Shown: positions 21,283-23,908 of the stretch, in pieces | How positions within the stretch are numbered: position 1 is the stretch's first letter | Layout: each line of letters starts with the position of its first letter | Assembly (NCBI GenBank): GCA_003388545.1 | Contig: QQVI01000314.1 | Span: 1-35,411 of the forward strand | Origin: Actinomycetota bacterium | Lineage (GTDB): Bacteria; Actinomycetota; Acidimicrobiia; Spongiisociales; ZC4RG35 | Reading direction: 5' to 3' | DNA: 35,411 bases | Notes under the pieces: generated by a model | Told to the model about the DNA's origin: nothing | Database searches by the model: none | Seen by the model: the letters and a program-made list of their open reading frames with translations, nothing else | Translations under genes and position numbers: made by a program

Positions 21283-22263
21283 TCAGGAGAGCCCGACGGC
21301 CTCCCGAACGGCAACCATCTCGTCCTCGGCTCTTTCCCTCGCAGTGGCGCCGTTACGGGACATCAGCTCTGCGACGTCGGCGTCACTGAGGTCGTGGTAT
21401 CGCTTGGATATCGGTGACAGCCCGTCGGCAATCGCCTCGCCTACGGCGATCTTGAACGCGCCATACCCCGAGTCGGCGTATTCCTCGGCAAGATCGGATA
21501 TCGATCGCCCGGTGAAGAAGGAGAAAAGCTCCAGGAGGTTGGATACGCCGGCCTTCTCCTCCCGGTCGTATGACACGGTCGTCCCGGTGTCCGTCACCGC
21601 CGACTTGACCTTCTTGAGGATCTGGTCGGCCGAGTCGGTGAGGAGGATCCTTGACTTCAGGCTTGGGTCCGACTTGGACATCTTCGAGGTCGGGTCGGTC
21701 AACGACATAACCCTGGCGCCGATCTCCGGTGTTATCCGCTCTGGTATCGGGAACACCTCGCCGAAGCGCTGGTTGAACCGTTCGGCCACGTCGCGGGTGA
21801 GCTCGAGATGCTGCGCCTGGTCATCGCCAACGGGGACCGCATGAACCTTGTGGATGAGGATGTCGGCGGCCTGAAGCACGGGATAAGCGAGGATACCGAG
21901 GTTCTGACCGGCCCGGTCGGCCTTCTCCTTGAAGTGGGTCATTCGCTCGAGCTGCCCGAGCCCGGTGAGGGTGCTCAATATCCAGGAGAGCTCGGAGTGA
22001 GCCGGCACATCCGACTGAAAGTAGAGCAGCGACCGGTCGGGGTCTATCCCCACGGCCAGGAGCATCTTCGCTGTCTCGATCCGCGAGGCACGGAGCTGAT
22101 CGGGCTCATAGGGAATCGTCATGGCGTGCAGGTCGACGACGCAATAGATGGTCTCGTACTCATCCTGCATCGTGACCCAGTTCTTCAGGGCACCGACGTA
22201 GTTGCCCAGGTGCAGCTCACCAGTGGGCTGGATCCCGGAGAACACTCGCTTGTTGTTTGTCAT
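21283..22263 (-). CDS. trpS: Tryptophanyl-tRNA synthetase
   Basis: TrpS charges tRNA-Trp with tryptophan. This class I synthetase of about 326 residues starts NKRVFSGIQPTGELHLGNYVGALKNWV, with the HIGH signature as LHLGN, and has the KMSKS loop as TSKMSKSDPSLKSRI. The blocks VVDLHAMT, AYPVLQAADIL and VGDDQAQHLELTRDVAERFN form the Trp and adenylate pocket. The frame reaches 22284, but the ATG at 22263 has the ribosome-binding sequence GAGGTAGAG immediately upstream and is chosen. The gene is preceded by an intrinsic terminator and a Trp-rich leader peptide, so it is very likely controlled by transcription attenuation in response to charged tRNA-Trp. It ends 7 bp from the convergent CPBP gene. 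Confidence 0.97.
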   Translation of the reverse strand: MTNNKRVFSGIQPTGELHLGNYVGALKNWVTMQDEYETIYCVVDLHAMTIPYEPDQLRASRIETAKMLLAVGIDPDRSLLYFQSDVPAHSELSWILSTLTGLGQLERMTHFKEKADRAGQNLGILAYPVLQAADILIHKVHAVPVGDDQAQHLELTRDVAERFNQRFGEVFPIPERITPEIGARVMSLTDPTSKMSKSDPSLKSRILLTDSADQILKKVKSAVTDTGTTVSYDREEKAGVSNLLELFSFFTGRSISDLAEEYADSGYGAFKIAVGEAIADGLSPISKRYHDLSDADVAELMSRNGATARERAEDEMVAVREAVGLS

Positions 22264-22284
22264 CTCTCTACCTCGAAAACTCAC

Positions 22285-22318
22285 AAAAAAGACCGTCGGG
22301 GCGGCGCCGCCGACGGTC
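22285..22318 (-). terminator. Intrinsic terminator in the trpS leader (attenuator)
   Basis: On the minus strand a 9-bp perfect stem GACCGTCGG/CCGACGGTC encloses a 10-nt GC-rich loop and is followed at once by six T residues. It lies between the Trp-rich leader peptide and the trpS ATG, the position of an attenuator rather than a gene-end terminator. Confidence 0.85.
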
Positions 22319-22338
22319 GGATCGCGCGCGGTGCCAGC

Positions 22339-22377
22339 CTAGGGGTTGGACCACCGGCGCCAGTTCTTCGAAAACAT
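22339..22377 (-). CDS. Trp-rich leader peptide of the trpS attenuator
   Basis: A 12-codon frame on the minus strand encodes MFSKNWRRWSNP then TAG, with two Trp codons (TGG) three apart. It ends about 20 nt before the terminator stem. Ribosome stalling at the Trp codons when charged tRNA-Trp is scarce would alter pairing of the following RNA and let polymerase read into trpS. Its ATG lies exactly 6 nt after a TAGGCT -10 box and has no evident ribosome-binding site, so translation appears leaderless. This is too short for normal gene finding; the call rests on the combination of promoter, Trp codons, terminator and downstream trpS. Confidence 0.82.
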   Translation of the reverse strand: MFSKNWRRWSNP

Positions 22378-22383
22378 GACGTG

Positions 22384-22412
22384 AGCCTACCGAACGAACG
22401 GGAGGGCTTCAA
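22384..22412 (-). promoter_or_regulatory. trpS leader promoter (TTGAAG - 17 nt - TAGGCT)
   Basis: The minus strand has TTGAAG (22407-22412) and TAGGCT (22384-22389) with exactly 17 nt between. The -35 overlaps the stop codon of the upstream DNA ligase gene. Transcription should begin at or within a base or two of the leader-peptide ATG at 22377. Confidence 0.72.
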
Positions 22413-23908
22413 CGGAGGTGGCTCCTCACCGTGTCGATGGTGTCGGCGTCTGCAGGGCCCTTGTCCTCCCGATGACGCTTGACCCGGGCAAACCGCAAAG
22501 CGACGCCACCCGGGTAGCGAGTGCTCCGCTGTACCCCGTCGAATGCGACCTCGTAGACGATCTTCGGCTCGAGGAAGACGATATGGCCTCGCCGCTCCCG
22601 CTCGATCTCGAGAAAGCGTTGGGTCTGCCAGTCGAGCATCTCGTCGGTGAGGCCCTTGAATGTCTTGCCGAGCATCACGAAACCACCCTCGGTGTCTCTG
22701 GCACCGAGATGGAGGTTAGAGAGCCAACCCTGGCGACGCCCCGAGCCCCACTCGGCAGCGAGTATCACCAGGTCGAGAGTGTGTGTTGGCTTGACCTTGA
22801 GCCAGCCCGACCCTCTTCTCCCGGCCTCATACGGCTGCTCGAGGTCCTTGACCACCACTCCCTCGAATCCTCTCGCTACCGACTCCGCGAAGAACGCCTC
22901 GGCCGCATCCGGGTCGCCGGTCACGAGCGAGCCGACCCGCAGCCTCTCCGGAACGGCTCGCTGCAAAGCCGCACGCCGAGCCGTGAGGGGGTGGTCTATC
23001 AGGTCCTCGCCGTCGAGATGGAGGATGTCGAAGAAGAATCCAGTGAGGTTCGTGCCTGATGCCTCCGCGATACCGCTCATGGAGTCCTGAAACGAAAGAG
23101 GCGCTCCTTGGGCATCGATGAGAAGCCCTTCCCCGTCGAGGATCACCGAATCGACATCCAGATCGAGCGTCGCAGACACGACATCGGGCATTCCCGCCGT
23201 GACATCACGAAGGTTGCGGGTGAAGACGGCGACGTCACTTCCGTCACGGTGTACCTGGAGTCTGAGCCCATCGAGCTTCTGCTCGACCACGGCTTCTCCC
23301 AACGCACCGATGGCATCTGATGCTGTCTCTGCGGTCTTGGCCAGCATGGGCTGGACAGGCGTGAGGAGCTGGAGTGATGCCTCTCCGAACGTCTCGACAC
23401 CGAGGGACAGGGCATCGGCTGCCACCGCTACGAGGTCTCCCCGCAGCATTGCGGCTCGCCGCACCCGCGGCGAAGGCACATCGAGGGCAACTGCTACCGC
23501 ATCGGCCATCACTCCCTCGAGGGCGCCCTGGCGGAGGTTGCGGAGGAGAAGCCCCCGAAGGAAGGCCTGTTCGTCTTCGGTCGCCTTCTCGAAGAGGCCC
23601 ATGAGGTGGTCTCGCTTCGCCCCGGTCGATCCCGGCCCGGACATCGAGGCGATCTCAGCGATGACTCGATCGACATCCAGAACCTCGAGGGTGGGCTCAG
23701 CGGCTGGCTCGGCTTCTATCGCGGCCACCGTGGCATAGCCGACTCCAATCGGGCTCTGCCGGGGTGCCCCGCTGAGAAACGAGACGGCCGCAGGCGCCTC
23801 CTCAGGTGTCAGTCTCGCCAGGAGGCCTGCCAGAAGCTCAGTCTTCTTCAACCGGGACCTCGTGCTGGAGACGGCGTCGGAAACCGACACCAAATCGTCG
23901 AGCAGCAT
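22409..23908 (-). CDS. lig: ATP-dependent DNA ligase
   Basis: This 499-residue ligase seals nicks in duplex DNA using ATP. An N-terminal helical DNA-binding domain (about 1-185) precedes the nucleotidyltransferase core, where motif I EQKLDGLRLQVHRDG near residue 210 holds the adenylated Lys. Other motifs are FTRNLRDVT (Ia/II region), LDGEGLLIDA (III), GFFFDILHLDGEDL (IIIa), FEGVVVKDL (IV) and GSGWLKVKPTHTLDLVILAAEWGSGRRQGWLSNLHLGA (V), and the OB-fold has the motif VI region near RYPGGVALRFARVKRHREDK. This is the LigB-type, distinct from the essential NAD-dependent LigA and without Ku or polymerase modules. It follows the molybdopterin gene with a TGATG overlap; its stop lies inside the trpS promoter. 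Confidence 0.95.
   Translation of the reverse strand: MLLDDLVSVSDAVSSTRSRLKKTELLAGLLARLTPEEAPAAVSFLSGAPRQSPIGVGYATVAAIEAEPAAEPTLEVLDVDRVIAEIASMSGPGSTGAKRDHLMGLFEKATEDEQAFLRGLLLRNLRQGALEGVMADAVAVALDVPSPRVRRAAMLRGDLVAVAADALSLGVETFGEASLQLLTPVQPMLAKTAETASDAIGALGEAVVEQKLDGLRLQVHRDGSDVAVFTRNLRDVTAGMPDVVSATLDLDVDSVILDGEGLLIDAQGAPLSFQDSMSGIAEASGTNLTGFFFDILHLDGEDLIDHPLTARRAALQRAVPERLRVGSLVTGDPDAAEAFFAESVARGFEGVVVKDLEQPYEAGRRGSGWLKVKPTHTLDLVILAAEWGSGRRQGWLSNLHLGARDTEGGFVMLGKTFKGLTDEMLDWQTQRFLEIERERRGHIVFLEPKIVYEVAFDGVQRSTRYPGGVALRFARVKRHREDKGPADADTIDTVRSHLR

Follow-up and report, generated by a model that had tools for sequence, protein, structure and literature searches.

We predict that trpS, the gene for the tryptophanyl-tRNA synthetase, is controlled in this genome by a ribosome-mediated transcription attenuator of the classical, trpL type (probability about 0.87). 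That the region acts as an attenuator is very likely, and its leader message is likely to be leaderless, i.e., to start on the leader ATG or within a few bases of it. We infer where exactly transcription starts, that the leader is translated, that termination occurs and which way trpS responds from the sequence elements, their conservation and the mutually exclusive folds predicted across a set of related leaders. The original prediction of Trp attenuation at trpS is supported by the joint retention of TGG codons and terminator in relatives, by the alternative pairing of the leader with the terminator and by a second Trp leader before trpE of the same genome.

Anatomy of the trpS leader

In the window, i.e., the whole analysed stretch of 35,411 nucleotides, trpS is preceded by a compact series of elements (Table 1). 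Each part of the predicted arrangement, namely TTGAAG-N17-TAGGCT, the ATG, the peptide with two Trp residues, the 9-bp stem, the T6 run and trpS itself, was matched base for base on the minus strand, as was the claimed overlap with the upstream ligase gene, the stop codon of which sits within TTGAAG. This upstream gene codes for an ATP-dependent DNA ligase (PRK03180 model, 692 bits). The leader reads ATG TTT TCG AAG AAC TGG CGC CGG TGG TCC AAC CCC TAG, with its TGG codons at 22362-22360 and 22353-22351, and 20 nt separate its stop codon from the hairpin; the region from the ATG to the T run takes up less than 100 nt (about 93 nt).

Table 1. Features of the trpS leader region and of the second Trp leader (positions are those of the window, except in the last row, which gives its own locus)
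Feature	Position	Strand	Basis or remark
-35-like hexamer TTGAAG	22412-22407	minus	sequence; 4/6 match
DNA ligase stop codon TGA	22411-22409	minus	inside the -35-like TTGAAG
-10 hexamer TAGGCT	22389-22384	minus	actinobacterial TAnnnT type; 17 nt after the -35
Leader ORF MFSKNWRRWSNP*	22377-22339	minus	ATG 22377-22375; two TGG codons
Putative regulatory codons TGG CGC CGG TGG (Trp 6, Trp 9)	22351..22362	minus	sequence
Segment 1 (over the Trp codons), 5' strand of helix 1:2	22352..22362	minus	predicted minimum-energy fold of the free leader
Segment 2 GGCACCGCGCGCG	22323..22335	minus	predicted to pair with segment 1 (as 22322-22333) or segment 3
Segment 3, 3' strand of the antiterminator	22303..22315	minus	predicted nascent fold with a ribosome stalled at Trp6, -16.1 kcal/mol
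Terminator hairpin (3:4) GACCGTCGGCGGCGCCGCCCCGACGGTC	22318-22291	minus	9-bp main stem, -21.4 kcal/mol
Terminator T6 tract	22290-22285	minus	sequence
GAGG, likely trpS Shine-Dalgarno	22274-22271	minus	7 nt ahead of ATG 22263
trpS, tryptophan--tRNA ligase, 326 aa	21283..22263	minus	TIGR00233, 332 bits (cut-off 176.75)
trpE leader, leaderless-type	G000:C148 about 1812-1950 (L144:513-650)	+	sequence

A profile search with PF00579 recovered a single copy of trpS in the genome. The same profile also covers tyrosyl-tRNA synthetase, yet trpS was its only match in this genome; TyrS may be absent from the incomplete assembly. The mechanically called trpS reading frame opens at GTG 22284, immediately 3' of the terminator T run. 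The start of trpS is most likely ATG 22263 instead, since the relatives start there, GAGG stands 7 nt ahead of it and GTG 22284 abuts the T run. A start call at GTG 22284 in automatic annotation may thus conceal the leader.

The 6-nt spacer cacgtc between TAGGCT and the leader ATG places the predicted +1 on the A of the ATG by the usual spacing, and the sequence ahead of the ATG displays no Shine-Dalgarno motif. Together with the counterparts in Streptomyces lividans, which are leaderless by RNA-seq (PMC8079986), these features speak against a Trp attenuator that is not strictly leaderless, with transcription starting several bases 5' of the ATG or with the leader also being read from ligase transcripts. 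We regard this variant as unlikely, while giving it some weight: the distance from the -10 to the start codon ranges from 6 to 10 nt among the trpS leaders, such that some transcripts may carry extra 5' bases, and the leader promoter is situated where the ligase gene ends.

The arrangement is rare by chance. Scanned on both strands, the 35-kb window holds a single match to TAnnnT followed after 5-10 nt by ATG or GTG and a short ORF containing two or more Trp codons, namely the trpS leader. When the 260 nt ahead of trpS were subjected to 20,000 dinucleotide shuffles, 0.06% of the shuffled sequences had such a reading frame with at least two Trp (p 0.0006) and 0.34% had one with at least one Trp. 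A generic promoter and terminator scanner flagged neither the promoter nor the terminator of the trpS leader; the promoter escaped it because the -35 matches only 4/6 positions and the -10 is not TATAAT-like, as its strict consensus demands, and the terminator because its loop exceeds the length that this scanner permits.

Conservation in the order

We found trpS in 57 of 60 relatives and read the upstream regions. A uniform filter (TAnnnT, 5-10 nt, ATG or GTG, and a short ORF with Trp), into which the -10 is thus built, was passed by 29 of the 56 trpS upstream regions from the same order; one of these (L070) was excluded as apparently accidental, leaving 28 leaders, including that of the window, spread over six of the eight families of the order. 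The remaining orders of the class contributed 42 trpS upstream regions, none of which passed the same filter (28/56 versus 0/42, Fisher p = 6e-9, uncorrected for kinship). After dinucleotide shuffling, sequences of the order set pass it at 1.6% with one Trp and 0.25% with two. The trpS genes in named records that are more distant (37-55% identity) were also scanned, and none of them shows a comparable Trp leader.

The leader peptides of the order have 11-14 residues and 1-3 Trp, which are kept in the second half of peptides that otherwise differ in sequence (e.g., MSTRRKWWSTSI, MQTNRWWWPGER and MRTNDLGWWRHDR; further examples are MSCRRNWWWRSEPS, MRGLVSLAWWWHF, MKSLVHVWWSRR and MMELVGSWWWRQR). 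The -35 is variable and weak in most relatives. The TGG codons, the spacing from -10 to ATG and the terminator co-occur in the 28 leaders, which speaks for an attenuator. Among the upstream regions listed, all of them read by eye, those devoid of TGG codons do not have the arrangement intact either, and we encountered no case in which the TGG codons were lost while the terminator was retained, the pattern that would have spoken against Trp control. Half of the order has no leader before trpS. Four relatives that lack the leader (L002-L004 and L020) carry half-terminator-like remnants, such as GTCGCCGCCGGAGC, just before trpS, which look as if they were decayed attenuators.

The genes upstream of the leader vary, being the ligase in the window and the ends of unrelated reading frames in other genomes, and we therefore assign the terminator to trpS rather than to the preceding gene. 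It is barely credible that the hairpin with its T6 run does no more than terminate the ligase gene, with trpS served by another promoter and the short ORF accidental: the terminator does lie just 3' of the ligase stop codon, and the many relatives without a leader must express trpS by other arrangements, but the 21 nt from the T run to the trpS ATG provide no space for a promoter, the hairpin also sits between Trp leader and trpS in relatives with different upstream genes, and a Trp ORF at this place is improbable by chance.

Predicted switching of the leader RNA

The free leader RNA is predicted to fold into the 1:2 helix and the terminator. With a ribosome stalled at the first Trp codon and the 3' arm of the terminator not yet made, the segment past the stop codon pairs wholly or partly with the 5' arm of the terminator in the predicted folds; a ribosome that has advanced to the stop codon masks it instead, which allows the terminator to form. 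The alternative pairing between leader and terminator, which the original prediction had proposed to look for, is thus present in the folds predicted for this RNA. Antiterminator and terminator would be mutually exclusive since segment 3 overlaps both the 5' arm and the loop of the terminator. Segment 2 occupies the nucleotides 3-16 past the leader stop codon in the window, and that of the relatives mostly starts only a few nt from the stop codon and ends at most 17 nt after it; the stop codon hence appears to be positioned for a terminating ribosome to cover segment 2. Terminator hairpins are present in all 28 leaders, about 20-36 nt after the leader stop codon; 25 were placed automatically and three (L022, L024 and L055) by hand on the conspicuous GC-rich hairpin, the automatic choice being wrong or truncated.

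These features suggest the following course of events. Transcription would begin at the leader ATG or a few bases off, and a ribosome would initiate on the leaderless message. With ample charged tRNA-Trp, this ribosome would reach the leader stop codon and cover segment 2, the terminator would form and trpS would not be transcribed. When charged tRNA-Trp is short, through low Trp or too little of the synthetase itself, the ribosome would stall at Trp6 or Trp9, leaving segment 2 free to pair with segment 3, which would block the terminator and let transcription proceed into trpS. A leader that is not translated would adopt the 1:2 helix and the terminator, and transcription would end.

Over the whole set, the energies of the 1:2 and 2:3 helices exceed those of shuffled linkers (Fisher p = 9e-10 and 4e-8, respectively, uncorrected for relatedness). 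A MAFFT alignment of the leaders misplaced the TGG and stop codons; for this reason, we relied on swap tests and linker shuffles in place of column-wise covariation and a covariance model. When segments were exchanged between leaders, the cognate 2:3 pairing outperformed the swapped one (17 groups, one representative each, p = 3e-4) and the cognate terminator arms (3:4) were far better than swapped ones (p = 5e-5); the swap test for the 1:2 helix was not significant (p = 0.11). The helices vary in sequence from leader to leader, yet the pairing of terminator and antiterminator persists over the set. Taken alone, the window has a 2:3 antiterminator no stronger than that of shuffled linkers (z = +0.7, p = 0.76) and a 1:2 helix that likewise does not stand out (p = 0.19), so that the case for its antiterminator depends on the relatives. 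Alternative helices are easily found in GC-rich sequence such as this, and related leaders are non-independent samples.

The statistical weakness of the 2:3 helix in the window could point to another route of control, such as a T-box, a tRNA- or ligand-binding RNA, Rho-dependent termination or translational coupling; the Trp codons would then be incidental or cause stalling without a hairpin switch. Several actinobacterial leaders without clear terminators may work otherwise (PMC1262725). We consider this very improbable. From its ATG to the T run, the leader is shorter than 100 nt; it has a strong U-tract terminator, and it is the Trp codons that are conserved in the peptide. At the gathering score, Rfam yielded no Trp_leader (RF00513), T-box or other relevant family in the whole window, and a permissive search (E up to 10, positions 22200-22480) gave chance-level sRNA matches, with neither a T-box nor a trp leader among them. 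As no Rfam family matched, the trpS leader, which we take forward as a ribosome-mediated attenuator, is likely to escape annotation.

The trpE leader and related systems

The same genome has a second leader of this type before trpE, with TTGACT-N17-TACGGT-N9-ATG, the peptide MTAYRLSQPTHTWWWGWSAPEVASSG (WWWGW) and a terminator with T6. Similar trpE leaders occur at 12 further loci of the order, and no such leader was seen at 30 trpE loci of relatives. A thirteenth candidate (L187) was not counted, having neither a clear -10 nor a U-tract terminator. The trpE genes with a lower PF04715 score (L176-L179, L181-L186, L191 and L193) mostly carry WW or WWW leaders, and the 30 higher-scoring trpE loci carry none; the order perhaps holds two kinds of trpE under different control. 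Tallied by hand over the genomes in which both regions were read, leaders are present before both genes in four, before trpS only in 20, before trpE only in nine and before neither in 14, which amounts to no significant trade-off between the two (p = 0.11, without phylogenetic correction). Only tentatively, and with more doubt than belief, do we suggest that the trpS attenuator of this order originated independently of that of Streptomyces and was gained and lost against a second attenuator on a distinct type of trpE, with Trp sensing shifting between synthesis and charging.

Seven of 67 trpS upstream regions from elsewhere in the phylum passed the filter and four were judged real. One of them (L236), whose genome measures 9.2 Mb and has trpS in two copies, encodes the leader peptide MTTRTCTQLWWAA, which is nearly that of S. 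lividans trpL2; the other three (L206, L207 and L210), from one family, encode MVVVEPSARSRWWPL-type peptides ending in RRWPL or RWWPL(P). Candidate trpS leaders of such design are thus found in at least three actinobacterial groups. Leaderless short ORFs with a regulatory role are also said to occur in mycobacteria, where the polycysteine ORFs described by Canestrari and colleagues in 2020 (cited in PMC13236596) reportedly respond to an amino acid, cysteine. These polycysteine ORFs are not known to work through a terminator switch of the trpS-leader type.

A leaderless leader before trpS had been put forward as a less usual design, and this part of the original prediction does not hold as it is already known: in S. 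lividans TK24, trpL2 (MMTRTCTQLWRAA) precedes trpS, is leaderless by RNA-seq and has been proposed to act by ribosome-mediated attenuation (PMC8079986), and a trpS2 attenuator was predicted in Streptomyces avermitilis from sequence only (Seliverstov et al. 2005, PMC1262725). A leaderless leader is likewise known before ilvB in Corynebacterium diphtheriae (PMC5784534). As predicted for the genome studied here, S. lividans has a leaderless Trp leader directly before trpS and a second leader before trpE (trpL1, WWW) (PMC8079986). Its trpL2, however, has one Trp and two hairpins with no U-rich stretch reported, whereas the leader in the window has two Trp and a clear U6 terminator; the two peptides have no evident sequence relation and would belong to different classes. 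The S. avermitilis prediction likewise concerns a classical Trp attenuator before an actinobacterial trpS gene, one named trpS2, whereas a single trpS was found in the window genome. The attenuators of the trp operons of Corynebacterium and Streptomyces share with the leader in the window a short leader ORF with 2-3 TGG codons, a GC-rich U-tract terminator and a competing antiterminator, which in the window is a predicted one (PMC1262725, PMC8079986), but govern Trp synthesis rather than tRNA charging; the window genome has one of these too.

Mechanism and target gene are therefore already known together, and the novelty lies in the lineage, in the conservation data and in the clear U-tract terminator. 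Leaderless Trp control of the tryptophanyl-tRNA synthetase would not be peculiar to Streptomyces, recurring with unlike sequences in a little-studied order. The roughly 28 leaders of this order are natural variants of a very compact putative attenuator that appears to use leaderless initiation in place of a ribosome binding site.
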